DNA of 64,000 nt from Methanocorpusculum sp. (GTDB lineage Archaea; Halobacteriota; Methanomicrobia; Methanomicrobiales; Methanocorpusculaceae). The notes below the pieces were generated by a model. The model did not search any database. It was not told where the DNA came from and was given only the letters and a program-made list of their open reading frames with translations. Of the stretch, positions 24,188-31,171 are shown piece by piece. The stretch lies in assembly GCF_030655665.1 (NCBI RefSeq), contig NZ_JAUSPQ010000008.1, forward strand, positions 186,001-250,000. The letters are read 5' to 3'. The position numbers were made by a program, and so were the translations under genes. How positions within the stretch are numbered: position 1 is the first letter of the stretch; each line of letters starts with the position of its first letter.

Positions 24188-24443
24188 TCTTACAGAATCT
24201 CAAACAGATGTTTACTTATCAACTTTCTCTTCAACAGAAATCCCAACTCAAGTTGGAGATTATGTAGTTGATAAGCAAATAACAGATGTCCCAACTCAAG
24301 TTGTAGATTATGTAGTTGATAAGCAAACAACAGATGTCCCAGGTACACTTCCTCCAAGAATTTCCAGTACAAAATCTGTTGAAAAAGAAGTATATGGTAT
24401 GAATAAAATTGTGACAGTTAAACGTTATAGGGTAAAGAAGTAA
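24171..24443 (+). CDS. Small protein with an internal tandem repeat
   Basis: The start at 24171 lies within the end of the TIGR04255 gene, so the pair is translationally coupled. The 90 residues contain a direct duplication: two near-identical units of about 17 residues (Pro-Thr-Gln-Val-x-Asp-Tyr-Val-Val-Asp-Lys-Gln) span about 26-57. The DNA repeat is nearly exact too, which suggests recent slippage. The C-terminus is basic (Val-Lys-Arg-Tyr-Arg-Val-Lys-Lys). The protein may be largely disordered, a linker between partners. No family is recognised. The next gene starts eight bases after its stop. Confidence 0.55.
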   Translation: MERQNNLTESQTDVYLSTFSSTEIPTQVGDYVVDKQITDVPTQVVDYVVDKQTTDVPGTLPPRISSTKSVEKEVYGMNKIVTVKRYRVKK

Positions 24444-25171: not shown

Positions 25172-26032
25172 ATGCCCATCGATGCAGACATCATAAAATC
25201 TCTCCATAAATACGAAATACGCATCCTCCACGCCCTCGAGCGGATGATGAAGCACTACCGCTGGGTCCCCGAAGACGACCTCCGTGCCGCCGTCAAGCTC
25301 TCACCCACTGAAATGAAATATCGTCTCGGCAACCTCATTCACCGGGATCTCATCCGCTCCGACTCCGTTCCTTACAAAGGCTACACCCTCGTCTTCGCCG
25401 GCTACGACGCCCTCGCCCTCTCCGACCTCGCCGGCAAAAAGACCATCTCCGCCCTCGGCAGCATGGTCGGCGTCGGCAAAGAATCCGAGATCTACGAAGC
25501 GCTCGGCTTTGGAATCGTCGTCCTCAAACTCCACAAAGTCGGTCAAAGATCCTTCCAGACCCTCAAAACCAACCGTGAATACATGCCCGGCGAAGGACAC
25601 TGCCCCTGGATATTTGCCTCAGCAAAATCAGCAGAACGGGAATATGAAGCTCTCAAAGCCTTAAACGGCAAAGTCAACGTACCGGTCCCCATCGACATAA
25701 ACCGGCATATCATCGTCATGTCCCATGTCCCCGGCGCGAACCTCTTCCGCTGCGTCCTCGAAGACCCCGACACCATCTATGCCGACATCCTGACCGAAGT
25801 CAAAAAAGCATACGCCGCCGGATTTATTCACGGCGACCTCTCCGAATACAACATCATGTGTGACGGAGAAACCGTCTGGCTCATCGACTGGCCCCAGTGG
25901 GCCCCGCCCACCCATCAGAACGCCGACGCCACCCTCCGGCATGACCTTGACACCGTCATCACCTACTTCGCAAAGAAATACCAGACAAAATACGACCTCG
26001 AAGAGGCCGTCCGCTTCGTAACGAGCCCATGA
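25172..26032 (+). CDS. rio2: RIO2-type serine protein kinase
   Basis: A 286-residue cytosolic atypical kinase/ATPase; RIO2 acts in maturation of the small ribosomal subunit. Residues 1-85 form the RIO2 winged-helix domain. The nucleotide loop Gly-Val-Gly-Lys-Glu-Ser-Glu-Ile-Tyr is at 100-108, the catalytic loop His-Gly-Asp-Leu-Ser-Glu-Tyr-Asn at 220-227 and the metal-binding Ile-Asp-Trp-Pro-Gln at 238-242. An earlier in-frame start at 25115 would fall in hairpin repeat F, and the family starts near Met-Pro-Ile-Asp, so I use 25172. It overlaps the DUF460 gene by four bases, and thiL follows, giving a three-gene operon. Confidence 0.93.
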   Translation: MPIDADIIKSLHKYEIRILHALERMMKHYRWVPEDDLRAAVKLSPTEMKYRLGNLIHRDLIRSDSVPYKGYTLVFAGYDALALSDLAGKKTISALGSMVGVGKESEIYEALGFGIVVLKLHKVGQRSFQTLKTNREYMPGEGHCPWIFASAKSAEREYEALKALNGKVNVPVPIDINRHIIVMSHVPGANLFRCVLEDPDTIYADILTEVKKAYAAGFIHGDLSEYNIMCDGETVWLIDWPQWAPPTHQNADATLRHDLDTVITYFAKKYQTKYDLEEAVRFVTSP

Positions 26033-28341
26033 ACCCGCTCGTCTTCGGCATCGACAAAACCAAAGGCTCCTCTGCCCGCTCACCCGACGGACTCTATGCT
26101 CTCGTCCGGGTAGTCGACCGCCGGATCGAATCCGAAGAACGGAACCTCACCCTCCAGCGTCTTCTCCATCTCATCAATGCCGAAAAACCCGGGATCATCG
26201 CGGTCGGATCGCTCCGCGATATCGTCCCCGAAACCGGATCACTTTTTACCCTGACCGAAGCTTTGCCGTTTGGCACGAAACTCGTTCTCATCGCCTGCAT
26301 CGGTGCAAAGATCGCCCCCCTCCCGAAACTTGCCGAGCGGTATAATCTCCGCTTCGACGCAGAGAACCCTATGGAGCAGGCAAAGATCTCGGCTCTCATA
26401 GCCTCCTTCGGCGGAGGATACGAGGTCCAGACCTTCGACGGGGTCACGACCATTACCGTGTCCCGGGCACGACCACAGATCCGCACGCATAAGGGCCGGT
26501 ATATCCGGCACATGCAGGGATCCGTCATGTCCTTTTCCCGCGAGATCGAGGCGGGTCTTCTCGCAAACGGGCTCATGTTCTCCTCCTCCATGTCCCGATC
26601 GTCCCGGGGTGAACGGATCGTCAAATTTACCGTATCCGCTCCCCGTCATGACGTGCCGGCATCTTCCCGCACATCTGCAGGTGTTTTGGTCCGGGTCACC
26701 GGAACGAAAAAAGAGCATCCCTCTTTTGTCCCGCTCTCGAAGCGGCCCGCCTACCTGATCGTCGGCATCGTTCCGGGCACGACTGTAGGGATCGCCGCAC
26801 TGAATCTCGACGGCGATCTGATCCATCTCTCCAGCTCGCATGCTCTCGGTCAGGCCGAGATCATCGCGTCCATCTCAAAGATCGGGAGACCCGTTCTGGT
26901 CGCGACCGACAAAGCCGCGATGCCGTTCGGGGTCGAGAAGGTCAGACGTGCCTTTTCTGCGATTGCCTGGACTCCGGCGAGGGATGTGCAGGTCAAAGAG
27001 ACGTACGAGCTTACCGAGGGGTATGACTTTGCGAACGATCACGAACGCGACGCCCTCTCGGCCGCGGTCCTCGCCTACCAGAGTTATGCGAACAAGTTCG
27101 AGGCCGTTCAGAAAAGGATGCCGCCAGGGACCGATATCGACATGGTCCGTGCCGGGATCGTTCGCGGACTGTCCCAGGACCAGATCCTCGAAGCGCTGAA
27201 GAATCCTGAAGAAATGCCCGAAGAGCCGGTGATCATCGAAGAGGAGCTTGTTCCCGACGAAAAGGATGAGCGTATCGCGAAGCTCGAAGAAGAGGTTGCG
27301 AATCTTCGTATAGCTACTGGCAGTTTATCGGAAGAAGTTGAAGTGAAGGATAAGGCAATAGCCTCCCTCCAGAAACAGCTTGTTTTCGAAAGAAGGGCTC
27401 ATGAGGCGGAGATCCTCTCCTCAAGGAAGATCCCTCCCCGCGACATGGAACCTGTCCCGAAGAAAGATCCAAGAACAGAGGTCCGCGGGAGTAAGGACCT
27501 GCAGGGCCTACAGGCCCTGCAGATCCGGCTGGAGCGGTTGAAAAATTTCATCTCCCTGCAGGCAGGAGAAGGCAGCACTGCGTTGAAAGTGCTCCCGCTG
27601 CTTGCAGATGATTCTGTCAAGGCCCTTGATGACGAAATGGGGGTCGGGGAGGAGGATATCCTGTATGTTCTCACGATCGACGGGTGGGACAGACCGGTGA
27701 TCCGGGATCTTGCCGAGGCAAAGATCGGGGCGGTCATTCTGCCGCGGCTGACGTATCAGCGGGCACACAGCCAGCATTTGATCGAGGAGTTCCGCGAGGC
27801 GAATGTCCCGGTTCTGGACGGTGCGAACCTTTCGCCCCGGGTGAAAGGAAAGATCGGTGTGGTCGACACCGCGGCATTCGAGTCCGCTCTTGCCGACTGG
27901 AAAACGACGCAGGCGGTCTATAATAACGAGAAGAAGAGCGGCGTGATCCCCCGGGCGGCGAAGGAACAGGTCGAGCGGCCAAAGCCTGCGCCGGTCCAGG
28001 CTCCGGTCCCGGCAGCAAAGCCGGAGCCGCCGGCAAAGGAGAAGACGGTGTTCCGGGCAAAACCGGTTGCTCCGATCCCTGTGCCGAAACCAGCGCCAAC
28101 TCAGGCCCCGGTCTCAAAGCCCGTTCCGAAGCCGGTCCTGGCCCTTGCTCCGAAACCGATTCCAAAGCCAATTCCAAAACCGGTTCCCAAACCTCTGCCC
28201 GCAGCAAAGCCGGCGCCGAAAAAGGAAGCACCGAAGAAATCTGCTCCTTCACAGAAGGCCGAGTCCGGATCCGCGGAAAAAATACTGTTCGGGGTGCTCT
28301 CCGAGTATCGTGAAGAACGCAAAAAGGAGATGAAGAAGTAA
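26029..28341 (+). CDS. DUF460-family protein with a Pro-Lys-rich tail
   Basis: A 770-residue archaeal protein of the DUF460/COG2433 family, whose role is not established. The N-terminal half holds two RNase H-like stretches (Val-Phe-Gly-Ile-Asp at 5-9 and a later Ile-Val-Gly-Ile-Val-Pro-Gly near 247-253, followed by an Asp-His-Glu-Arg-Asp-Ala segment). A coiled coil follows at about 405-460 (Lys-Leu-Glu-Glu-Glu-Val-Ala-Asn-Leu). A second globular part runs to about 640. The last 130 residues are low complexity, with many Pro-Lys-Pro units, and probably disordered. The gene overlaps rio2 by four bases and thiL by one. The linkage with rio2 hints at ribosome or RNA work; that is inference. Confidence 0.85.
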   Translation: MNPLVFGIDKTKGSSARSPDGLYALVRVVDRRIESEERNLTLQRLLHLINAEKPGIIAVGSLRDIVPETGSLFTLTEALPFGTKLVLIACIGAKIAPLPKLAERYNLRFDAENPMEQAKISALIASFGGGYEVQTFDGVTTITVSRARPQIRTHKGRYIRHMQGSVMSFSREIEAGLLANGLMFSSSMSRSSRGERIVKFTVSAPRHDVPASSRTSAGVLVRVTGTKKEHPSFVPLSKRPAYLIVGIVPGTTVGIAALNLDGDLIHLSSSHALGQAEIIASISKIGRPVLVATDKAAMPFGVEKVRRAFSAIAWTPARDVQVKETYELTEGYDFANDHERDALSAAVLAYQSYANKFEAVQKRMPPGTDIDMVRAGIVRGLSQDQILEALKNPEEMPEEPVIIEEELVPDEKDERIAKLEEEVANLRIATGSLSEEVEVKDKAIASLQKQLVFERRAHEAEILSSRKIPPRDMEPVPKKDPRTEVRGSKDLQGLQALQIRLERLKNFISLQAGEGSTALKVLPLLADDSVKALDDEMGVGEEDILYVLTIDGWDRPVIRDLAEAKIGAVILPRLTYQRAHSQHLIEEFREANVPVLDGANLSPRVKGKIGVVDTAAFESALADWKTTQAVYNNEKKSGVIPRAAKEQVERPKPAPVQAPVPAAKPEPPAKEKTVFRAKPVAPIPVPKPAPTQAPVSKPVPKPVLALAPKPIPKPIPKPVPKPLPAAKPAPKKEAPKKSAPSQKAESGSAEKILFGVLSEYREERKKEMKK

Positions 28342-29201
28342 TGGACGACCGCGCCCTTCTTGCCTCCATCCGTCATCTGATCGGCGAAGACGAGACGGCG
28401 GACGACTGCGCCGGATTCGATCTTCAGGACGGCAGGATCCTCGTATCCAGCACCGACATGCTGCATGAAACGACCGATTTCCCGAAAGGCATGACCGAGT
28501 TTGAAAAAGGCTGGATGAGTGCCGCGGTCACGCTTTCGGATATCGCGAGCTGCGGGGCCCAGCCTATTCAGATCCTGGTGGCTATCGGTCTCGACGATCC
28601 GTCCCGGCTCGTTCCGTTCATGGAAGGCGCCGTTTCCTGCGCAGAACGCTTCGGTGCGAAAGTTGCCGGCGGGGATATCGACAGTCATACTGAACTCACC
28701 GTCGTGACCACTGGTATTGGGATCGTCGAGAAAGCTCATTACTGCCGGCGGTCCGGCGCATCGCCTGGCGATTTAGTATGCATTACCGGGACGCCGGGTC
28801 GTGCCATGGCGGCGCTCGAAGGGGACGAACGATATCGGGAAAATCTGCTCACTCCGATCCCGCAGGTCGAAGCCGGGATAAAAATCGGACGTGCCGGAGC
28901 TTCCTCTATGATGGATGTATCAGACGGTCTCGCGATCTCGCTGTATGATATGTCGGACGCGTCCGGCGTCGGATTCGCGCTCGATTCTGCGAAGTTTACG
29001 CTTCCCGCGGTCCGTTTCGGCTCCGCTATGGAGTATTATCTCTACGGCGGCGGGGATTTTGGTCTTTTGTTCTGTATACCGCCGGCGCGTTTATCGGCCC
29101 TTGATACGGACCACACCGTTATCGGGACGGTCGTCAGAGAAAAAGGGGTATGGTGTGACGGGGAAATTGTAGAAAAGCGGGGCTATGCTCACACGTGGTG
29201 A
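28341..29201 (+). CDS. thiL: Thiamine-monophosphate kinase
   Basis: A 286-residue enzyme that phosphorylates thiamine monophosphate to thiamine pyrophosphate, the last step of cofactor synthesis, with ATP. It shows the AIR-synthase/PurM-like fold. A short N-terminal Asp-Asp motif (Asp21-Asp22), Ser-Thr-Asp-Met-Leu near 37-41, a Leu-Ser-Asp-Ile-Ala segment near 66, a Gly-Gly-Asp-Ile-Asp segment near 110 and a Met-Asp-Val-Ser-Asp-Gly-Leu motif near 193 are the metal and nucleotide binding sites. The length is a little short of the usual 310-330. Its ATG overlaps the DUF460 stop by one base. The 3' end overlaps the convergent UPF0146 gene by 13 bases. Confidence 0.92.
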   Translation: MDDRALLASIRHLIGEDETADDCAGFDLQDGRILVSSTDMLHETTDFPKGMTEFEKGWMSAAVTLSDIASCGAQPIQILVAIGLDDPSRLVPFMEGAVSCAERFGAKVAGGDIDSHTELTVVTTGIGIVEKAHYCRRSGASPGDLVCITGTPGRAMAALEGDERYRENLLTPIPQVEAGIKIGRAGASSMMDVSDGLAISLYDMSDASGVGFALDSAKFTLPAVRFGSAMEYYLYGGGDFGLLFCIPPARLSALDTDHTVIGTVVREKGVWCDGEIVEKRGYAHTW

Positions 29202-29587
29202 GCCCGAACATATCTGTGGAGCATCACTCCCTCAGTGATGATCCGTTCCCCGCCGTTTTCGTACAGCTCGAAGCCCAGATGATACACGATGAGGTCTGCT
29301 CCTACGTTTTTTGCAAGATCGATCAGTGCCGGCACTATCTCGGTGCCAGGGCGGATCGCGTAGATAACGTCTGCCTGATAGAAAGATAACGTCGGCTCGA
29401 CACAGTCATCGACCACCGCGGGCACCGGTCCGTCGGCGTATGCGTGCACATCCGTACAGAGAATTGGGATCCCTGCCGCCTGCACGATCTCTGCAGCCAC
29501 GGTTTTTCCGCCGAATCCCACTTCCACGGCCGAATGATATTTTCCCGCGATGTACCTTCCAACGGCTTTCTCGATGCTGTCTCTCAT
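29189..29587 (-). CDS. UPF0146-family protein
   Basis: A 132-residue archaeal protein of unknown function. A GTG at 29608 would add seven residues. I prefer the ATG at 29587 because an AAGGT lies about ten bases upstream. The sequence has a Rossmann-like opening (Val-Glu-Val-Gly-Phe-Gly-Gly, followed by a helix and Thr-Asp-Val near 40-46), reminiscent of methyltransferases. It also has the family Pro-Glu/Gly-Thr-Glu-Ile-Val-Pro-Ala-Leu and a late Leu-Tyr/Phe-Glu-Leu-Tyr segment. It is convergent with thiL and divergent from the archaemetzincin gene. Confidence 0.85.
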   Translation of the reverse strand: MRDSIEKAVGRYIAGKYHSAVEVGFGGKTVAAEIVQAAGIPILCTDVHAYADGPVPAVVDDCVEPTLSFYQADVIYAIRPGTEIVPALIDLAKNVGADLIVYHLGFELYENGGERIITEGVMLHRYVRAHHV

Positions 29588-29633
29588 AGAATAAGGTACC
29601 TTTATCACTTTGCATAGAGAAATACCTATACAA

Positions 29634-30242
29634 ATGGGGATACATCTTTTCTGGGACAGCCGTGTCCCTGTGGGTCTTTCGCGTCCGGTTTCCGAGGAGT
29701 TGTCCGCGGTCCTTGAGATGCCCGTCTCAAGGATCGATGACGGGATATTTTCGCTCGAAGGCTTTGATCCGGCACGAAATCAGTATGATGCCGTGAAGAT
29801 CCTGCGAAAACTTGACATGTTCCGGAGAAGGATGCCCCAGATTTTCAAGCCTGCCGATATGGAGCTTGACTATTATAATAAATTCAATCATCTCCACGAA
29901 AAGATCCTGCTGGTCACGCCGGGCGATATCTATGAACCTCTGGCGGACTTTGTGTTCGGTCTTGCCTATCCGAAACTCGGGGTCGCGATCGTCTCCCCGT
30001 ACCGGCTCAGAAACGAGTTTTACGGAAAATATGAAGACGACTCTGCCCTTATCGACCGGATCGTCAAAGAAGGCGCTCATGAGATCGGGCATCTGTTTGG
30101 TCTTGGTCACTGCGATAATCCCGGCTGTATCATGTACTGCCCGCGGAATCTGGATGAGCTGGACCGGAAACGCAAATACTTCTGCGGGAAATGCCGGGTC
30201 CAGCTGAATGGCGACAAGTCGGAGGATGAGCTCTTCTCATGA
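29634..30242 (+). CDS. amzA: Archaemetzincin, zinc metalloprotease
   Basis: A 202-residue metzincin-type protease, probably cytosolic. The zinc-binding His-Glu-Ile-Gly-His is at 149-153, followed by Gly and the third ligand His159. The archaemetzincin-specific Cys set (160, 165, 184, 187), with a Cys-x-Met turn, should bind a second zinc. I use the ATG at 29634 because the family starts Met-Gly-Ile-His-Leu-Phe-Trp; a TTG at 29610 would add eight residues with no ribosome site. Physiological substrates are not known. The stop overlaps the ATG of the Cas1-like gene by two bases (ATGA), so the two are translated together. Confidence 0.93.
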   Translation: MGIHLFWDSRVPVGLSRPVSEELSAVLEMPVSRIDDGIFSLEGFDPARNQYDAVKILRKLDMFRRRMPQIFKPADMELDYYNKFNHLHEKILLVTPGDIYEPLADFVFGLAYPKLGVAIVSPYRLRNEFYGKYEDDSALIDRIVKEGAHEIGHLFGLGHCDNPGCIMYCPRNLDELDRKRKYFCGKCRVQLNGDKSEDELFS

Positions 30243-31171
30243 TCCCCTGGGTAACGGTGTGGGGCTACGGCGCCGAGATCAAGTCGACGCAGGATTCGCT
30301 CCTCGTCCGGCAGAAGGGCACGCAGACCAGATATCCACTGGACGGCATGCGGCATCTCCTGATCGCGGGGGGGCACACGCTCCATACCTCGGTCCTGGAA
30401 CGCCTCGCGGATCGCGGTATCGCGGTATCGTTTTTCACGGCGCACGGCAAACCGGTCGGTGGACTGTACGGGAAAAGCGGTCCCTCGCTTGCGGCAGTCC
30501 AGCGTGATATCCCGATCCACAAGTTCGCGATGGCCTCGATCCGTTCCTCTCTCGACGCACGGCTGAGATATATCAACGAGCTTGCCGAGGTGGATCCTGA
30601 CGGTCTGTATTTAAAAGGCGAGTTTGATATCCTCACCGCCGCACGAAGTGAACTGGATTTCCTGATCACCCTGCCGGAGATCGGCCGGGCGTTCTCTCTA
30701 ACGAAGACGATGTATTACGAGATCCTGAGTAGGACCCTGCCGAAGACGCTTGGATTCCGCAGACGGACCCAGCCCCCGTTTATGGATCCGGTGAACGTGA
30801 TGATGTCCCACGGATATGCCGTAATGTATGCGACCTTCGCCGTTGCCTGTACGGGTGCGGGTCTCGATCTCTCCCGAGGGGCACTGTACGGCGGGATCGT
30901 GCCGGTGATCGGCGGCAAGGGAGGCTGCGTTCTTGATCTTATGGAGCCGGCGACTATTTCGATGGTGGACCGGGTCATCGTGCAGATGGCGAAAGAAGGC
31001 CGTCTTGACGGGGCGTATGAGGTCACGACCCGGTGTCTTCTCTCGAATGAACTCAAAGAGGAGTTCATGACACGGCTGAACGGTTCGATCGATACAGGTC
31101 TGATCCAGGAAAATGTGAGCCGGTACGCCGAGGCAGTGAGAGATGGCGGCGAGATCATATTTCATTACTGA
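30239..31171 (+). CDS. cas1: Stand-alone Cas1 homologue lacking the active-site His
   Basis: A 310-residue protein of the Cas1 integrase family. The N-terminal beta domain (1-90) is followed by the alpha domain. The landmark Arg-Arg-x-x-Pro-Pro-x-x-Asp-Pro-Val-Asn is at about 175-186, Gly-Leu-Asp at 208-210 and Leu-Asp-Leu-Met-Glu-Pro at 232-237. Canonical Cas1 has a Glu, a His in a Gly-x-Leu-His motif and an acidic pair. Here Glu147 is a candidate first ligand and Asp233/Glu236 are kept, but Gly-Ala-Leu-Tyr places Tyr217 at the His position. No cas2, other adaptation gene or CRISPR array is seen in the window. It is coupled to the archaemetzincin gene. Solo Cas1 lineages are known in methanogens; whether this one still integrates DNA is doubtful. 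Confidence 0.85.
   Translation: MIPWVTVWGYGAEIKSTQDSLLVRQKGTQTRYPLDGMRHLLIAGGHTLHTSVLERLADRGIAVSFFTAHGKPVGGLYGKSGPSLAAVQRDIPIHKFAMASIRSSLDARLRYINELAEVDPDGLYLKGEFDILTAARSELDFLITLPEIGRAFSLTKTMYYEILSRTLPKTLGFRRRTQPPFMDPVNVMMSHGYAVMYATFAVACTGAGLDLSRGALYGGIVPVIGGKGGCVLDLMEPATISMVDRVIVQMAKEGRLDGAYEVTTRCLLSNELKEEFMTRLNGSIDTGLIQENVSRYAEAVRDGGEIIFHY

Follow-up and report, generated by a model that had tools for sequence, protein, structure and literature searches.

The cas1 locus and its neighbours

The 64-kb stretch of DNA analysed here (the window) carries at 30239–31171 (+ strand) a gene for a 310-aa protein (P0001), which the ORF call, Pfam, an AlphaFold2 model and a fold match together identify as a Cas1-solo group 1 protein. 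It matches the Cas1 family profile PF01867 (Cas_Cas1, Pfam) over residues 7–280 with 126.5 bits against a cut-off of 22.3, and this near-full-length match makes it a member of the family; its NCBIfam name is Cas1 endonuclease. We built an AlphaFold2 model of the protein with 77 orthologues (pLDDT 93.6, pTM 0.92), and the top match to the model among solved structures is AfCas1 (4n06; TM 0.83, 18% identity), so that a full-length Cas1 fold is predicted with confidence. The initial annotation had read the Asp-Pro-Val-Asn and Leu-Asp-Leu-Met-Glu signatures as intact and the Gly-x-Leu-His motif as altered; we find DPVN at residues 183–186, LDLME at 232–236, and GALY, which ends in Tyr217.

Directly upstream on the same strand lies amzA (29610–30242, +), which passes the archaemetzincin cut-off and encodes an intact HEIGHxxGxxHC motif. 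The gene is listed from a TTG at 29610 that is probably not real; the likelier start is the ATG at 29634 (MGIHLFW...), where the conserved sequence begins in relatives. The cas1 ATG (30239–30241) does overlap the archaemetzincin stop (TGA, 30240–30242), as had been noticed, and the two share an ATGA at 30239–30242 (+). A candidate ribosome-binding site for cas1, GGAGG at 30221–30225 (+), lies within amzA, 13 nt ahead of the ATG, and the closest relatives likewise have GGAGG before their cas1 ATG. On the far side of amzA is a UPF0146 gene (29189–29608, − strand), which the comparison of loci shows to be paired divergently with amzA order-wide. The near neighbours of cas1 are genes for a DUF460 protein, an AIR-synthase-related protein, UPF0146, AmzA and an Obg-like GTPase; the DUF460 protein (26029–28341, +; 770 aa) has a long proline/alanine/lysine-rich C-terminal part. 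Two tandem 48-nt copies at 24233–24328 are 92% identical and, with a length that is a multiple of three, are possibly a coding repeat.

The pairing with the protease gene, described initially as unexplained, is real in the Methanocorpusculaceae but absent elsewhere in the order. In this family, cas1 directly follows amzA on the same strand in 28/28 scorable loci. The overlap itself is a trait of Methanocorpusculum, where the stop and start share 1–4 nt in nearly all members (ATGA, TTGA, GTGA or TAATG-type), while in the sister genus of the family the two genes are 78–104 nt apart. Across the order amzA is present in 105 of the 106 genomes checked, and outside the Methanocorpusculaceae it is not beside cas1, the two genes being about 50–95 kb or more apart in single-contig genomes; there, UPF0146 adjoins amzA in 19 of 20 sampled loci (divergent in 18, on the same strand in one). 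Because the two genes are conserved independently and adjacent only in the Methanocorpusculaceae, we regard amzA–cas1 as a lineage-specific join. An ancient amzA–cas1 unit is ruled out, since in the rest of the order cas1 lies away from amzA, whose partner there is UPF0146, and the divergent UPF0146–amzA pair is a better functional lead for the archaemetzincin than cas1 is.

Family membership, selection and relation to CRISPR

The window gene is a member of Cas1-solo group 1, a family already described. The group was reportedly first set out by Makarova et al. in 2013. It has been found in Methanomicrobiales only, with no CRISPR association and no sign of horizontal transfer, and none of its proteins has a full active site (Krupovic et al. 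2014, PMC4046053). The clade of the window gene, which we assigned by this published description, agrees with every group 1 feature examined. An orthologue is present in 217 of 232 Methanomicrobiales genomes, in 133 of the 135 good-quality ones, in 38 of 40 genera and in six families, and the genomes missing it are mostly fragmentary assemblies. In a tree restricted to the solo group and 37 CRISPR-type Cas1, 50 solo rows fall on one side of a single branch with support of 100/100. A profile search of 392 genomes of the phylum separates the clade (lowest score 352.6 bits) from the best of the rest (164.1 bits) and reveals only one such clade within the order; a search at class level gives the same result, the class holding one order. 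Among the matches listed in a GTDB scan, the named genomes belong to the Methanomicrobiales, with the exception of a few MAGs that carry no label beyond ‘Euryarchaeota’.

Close relatives have pairwise dN/dS values of 0.05–0.13, which show that solo cas1 is under strong purifying selection. Outside Methanocorpusculum, an acylphosphatase gene usually lies downstream of cas1 in convergent orientation, often followed by a gene for a protein of about 1200 aa with repeats and by a phosphomannomutase gene, and this arrangement occurs in loci of the other five families as well as in the sister genus of the Methanocorpusculaceae. The convergent acylphosphatase in all six families favours vertical descent at an ancestral locus. 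Conserved operon partners gave no lead to the function, as these order-wide neighbours (acylphosphatase, repeat protein and phosphomannomutase) are all convergent. The repeat protein, which is convergent to solo cas1 in many genera (for example L071:1057–4671 and L084:6222–9779), has no family match above cut-off and a weak resemblance to TT21 ARM/TPR-like repeats. In the literature searched, we found no functional study of Cas1-solo group 1.

The initial annotation had stated that no cas2, other adaptation gene or CRISPR array lies in the 64 kb. This holds for the window, in which we found no CRISPR-like repeat family, but not for the genome, whose contig C4 carries a complete cas4–cas1–cas2 module with 26 repeat units. 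The Cas1 encoded there has its Glu, His and Asp/Glu all intact, and this other Cas1 match and the only Cas2 matches of the genome sit on a contig other than that of the window. The annotation had also named cas2 and an array elsewhere in the genome, with the window gene as the functional Cas1, as one finding that would speak against it. Both are present, but they accompany a different, intact Cas1, so that the window gene as a true Cas1 with a distant array is ruled out. Because a separate intact cas4–cas1–cas2 module and array exist, the window gene is not the CRISPR integrase of this genome, and its own locus has neither the adjacent cas2 nor the array of a functional CRISPR Cas1. The same independence is seen more widely, as 21 of 75 genomes with a completeness of at least 98% have no Cas1 match besides the solo protein, and no match to the Cas2 profile PF09827 was found in those 21, although this profile is not universal for Cas2 and failed in an E. 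coli control. We therefore consider the independence from Cas2 to be strong but not absolute. In the tree, the CRISPR-type Cas1 of Methanomicrobiales genomes are spread over several distant clades.

The NCBIfam equivalog TIGR00287 (‘CRISPR-associated endonuclease Cas1’) matches 77/77 solo orthologues with E-values of 1e-5 or better, and the window protein passes its cut-off. Since this model matches solo Cas1, automatic annotation can call CRISPR adaptation genes that do not exist, a systematic misannotation by which solo genes could be counted as adaptation genes in genomes without any.

Replaced catalytic residues and new conserved positions

We compared the active site over 79 orthologues and, separately, between 47 group members and 37 CRISPR-type Cas1. 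The initial annotation was right that the catalytic His is replaced by Tyr217 (codon 30887–30889, +), but it overlooked that the catalytic Glu of the ‘EGxxxxxYF’ helix aligns with Phe152 (codon 30692–30694, +) and that Gly153 beside it and Arg239 of CRISPR-type Cas1 are also missing. The remaining two catalytic-type acidic residues, Asp233 and Glu236, belong to the Asp-Leu-Met-Glu of codons 233–236 (30935–30946, +). Two of the four catalytic positions are thus gone from the window protein, which thereby lacks the Glu/His/Asp/Asp-or-Glu set of a functional CRISPR Cas1, and no other His was found in its catalytic site. For E. coli Cas1, a statement cited in PMC4046053 has it that Ala at any of the four catalytic positions kills the nuclease activity.

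The lost positions are unconstrained in the group. While CRISPR-type Cas1 have the catalytic Glu in 37/37 and the His in 37/37, the 47 group members have chiefly H, F, Y, Q or E at position 152 and chiefly H, Y, N, R or S at position 217. Over the 79 orthologues, Glu152 is retained in three and the commonest residue at this position is His (38/79); at position 217, His is found in 30 and Tyr in 19, the rest being N, R, S, F, K, Q and rarer residues. Arg239 is mostly Lys in other group members. The acidic positions are kept to a greater extent, with Asp233 in 74 of 79 orthologues and Glu in the other five, and with Glu (49/79) or Asp (25/79) at position 236. We checked whether the Tyr is fixed across the clade and found that it is not: all 19 Tyr217 orthologues belong to Methanocorpusculum, the genus of the window, and even there Tyr217 occurs in 19 of 24 sequences, the remainder having Phe or His. 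As the residue varies even within the genus, Tyr217 is neither a signature of the clade nor a plausible new nucleophile, and a fixed nucleophile at this position is ruled out. The active site is incomplete in the window protein and in 78 of 79 orthologues. The sole exception (L083:4973–5893, − strand) has all four catalytic-type residues (Glu, His, Asp, Glu); in the four species of its genus (L083 and L203–L205) Glu is back at position 152, and His217 is present in L083 only. A revived active site in this genus is ruled out by the three sister species without the His.

A different set of positions is invariant or nearly so in the group and variable in CRISPR-type Cas1, including W4, H39, R108, G127, E128, E147, R150, M158, E161, R165, R175, R265 and C266. 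Among these, Glu128 (codon 30620–30622, +) is invariant in 79/79 orthologues. Five of them form a stripe (Glu147/Arg150/Met158/Glu161/Arg165) on the catalytic helix (codons 145–165, 30671–30733, +; modelled as 145–164 and stretched to 165 for the stripe analysis), which by alignment and model would face away from position 152. The five positions share one helix face (resultant 0.87; compared with randomly chosen positions, P = 0.003), with the stripe directed 156 degrees from position 152. The comparison shows a shift of conservation to new invariant Glu/Arg residues, and the model places five of the new positions opposite the old active site. If the stripe is an internal salt-bridge network rather than surface, it would point to stability rather than partner binding. 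The charge of the protein has shifted too, the group having a median net charge of −5 and pI of 6.2 against +6 and 8.9 in CRISPR-type Cas1, and the window protein having a net charge of 0 and a pI of 7.1. That the solo group is far less basic argues against a simple DNA-binding role.

Interpretation and comparison with known systems

The explanation that we consider very probable is that the window gene, passed down vertically as a housekeeping gene, encodes a domesticated Cas1 that is catalytically dead and has a non-integrating role in binding or as a scaffold. Under this explanation, a Cas1 would have become detached from the CRISPR adaptation machinery earlier than the last common ancestor of the Methanomicrobiales, the integrase/nuclease site would then have been lost, and the gene would have been passed on vertically. 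The protein would work by binding rather than by cutting or joining DNA; what its conserved Cas1 body and the new Glu/Arg site would hold is most likely a protein partner, alone or together with a nucleic acid, and the binding may serve some constant task of the cell, for instance genome maintenance. In the Methanocorpusculaceae the gene would have come to sit behind amzA, and in Methanocorpusculum the junction would have shrunk to the 1–4-nt overlap, which may give co-expression there and is no part of the basic function. Two observations stand against the explanation. The acidic residues are largely kept (Asp233 in 74/79, Glu or Asp at 236 in 74/79), by which a weak metal site could persist, and positions 152 and 217 both have His more often than any other residue (38/79 and 30/79), so that other families could conceivably have an altered metal site, but not the window protein itself with its Phe152 and Tyr217.

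A narrower version of this explanation is that the protein still binds branched or duplex DNA, as Cas1 does, and acts as a non-cutting accessory factor in repair or replication, which we hold to be a reasonable but minority possibility. Cas1 is reported to act on branched DNA (PMC4574026), and in agreement the fold is intact and the arginines R108, R150, R165, R175, R176 and R265 are conserved in the group; against it, the charge has dropped sharply (median −5 versus +6), Arg239 is lost in the window protein and mostly Lys elsewhere, and no repair gene is conserved as a neighbour. The initial proposal of a solo Cas1 lineage that is probably non-integrating agrees well with the group 1 assignment and the unconstrained positions 152 and 217, but its ‘DNA-binding’ part fits poorly with a pI of 6.2 versus 8.9. 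Its alternative, an integrase with a different chemistry, is in our estimate quite unlikely. Asp233 and Glu236 remain, and the group-specific, invariant or near-invariant Glu128, Glu147 and Glu161 are close in sequence, so that Tyr217 might serve as nucleophile or Glu147/Glu161 as metal ligands, for example; yet Tyr217 gives way to His and Phe in close relatives within the genus, the residues found in place of the lost ones show free variation, position 152 is on the other face of the helix from Glu147 and Glu161, and Glu and His are both back in just one of the four species of a genus.

A functional unit with the archaemetzincin, in which Cas1 would be an AmzA substrate, adaptor or regulator, is quite unlikely: the adjacency in 28/28 family loci and the nearly genus-wide overlap favour it, but outside the family amzA, found in 105/106 genomes, is apart from cas1 and paired with UPF0146 in 19/20 loci. 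We find it very unlikely that the protein modulates CRISPR adaptation, whether by mixing as an inactive subunit with active Cas1 or by keeping Cas2 sequestered. Many genomes, including that of the window, do carry an intact cas1 module as well, but the solo protein is the only Cas1 in 21 of 75 near-complete genomes, Cas2 was found in none of the 21, and the CRISPR-type Cas1 with which it would have to work belong to several distant clades. Such solo genes were earlier thought to be probably vestigial (PMC9755687), and the active site is indeed broken; a decaying relic without function is nevertheless extremely improbable, given the dN/dS of 0.05–0.13, the near-universal retention in six families and the new invariant residues. 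Returning to the domesticated Cas1, its near-universal presence, its selection and its retention in genomes in which no other Cas1 and no Cas2 was found imply that some cellular process probably depends on a dead Cas1, and genetic work in culturable methanogens offers a way to look for this process. It is possible, though we hold this part tentatively at somewhat below even chances, that a Cas1 fold has become a core cellular factor of the whole order, with a new site behind the catalytic helix and a task unrelated to CRISPR or transposition. The family was already known; new are its status as a core gene, the finding that it is independent of CRISPR, the shift of the conserved site and an explanation for the amzA pairing.

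Compared with Cas1-solo group 1 by its published description, the window gene is alike in restriction to the order, lack of CRISPR association, incomplete active site and absence of signs of transfer, and no difference excludes it. With CRISPR-type Cas1, as represented by AfCas1 (4n06, TM 0.83), it has the whole fold in common, and Tyr159, Arg176, Asn186, Asp233 and Asp244 are shared between the solo group and CRISPR-type Cas1; unlike these, the group does not keep Glu152, Gly153, His217, Phe238 and Arg239, has Glu at position 236 in about half of its members, is far less basic, has a new invariant set, and its gene has no adjoining cas2 or array. The fold is also alike in casposases / Cas1-solo group 2 (6opm, TM 0.80), in which the four catalytic residues are all retained and whose genes lie in PolB-containing transposons (PMC4046053). 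The window protein, in contrast, has an incomplete catalytic set and its gene is not in a PolB transposon, no PolB, HNH or HTH gene having been found among its near neighbours. The archaemetzincin (AmzA, M54), with its intact motif, is the product of the upstream neighbour; it is a protein in its own right, paired with UPF0146 across the order.
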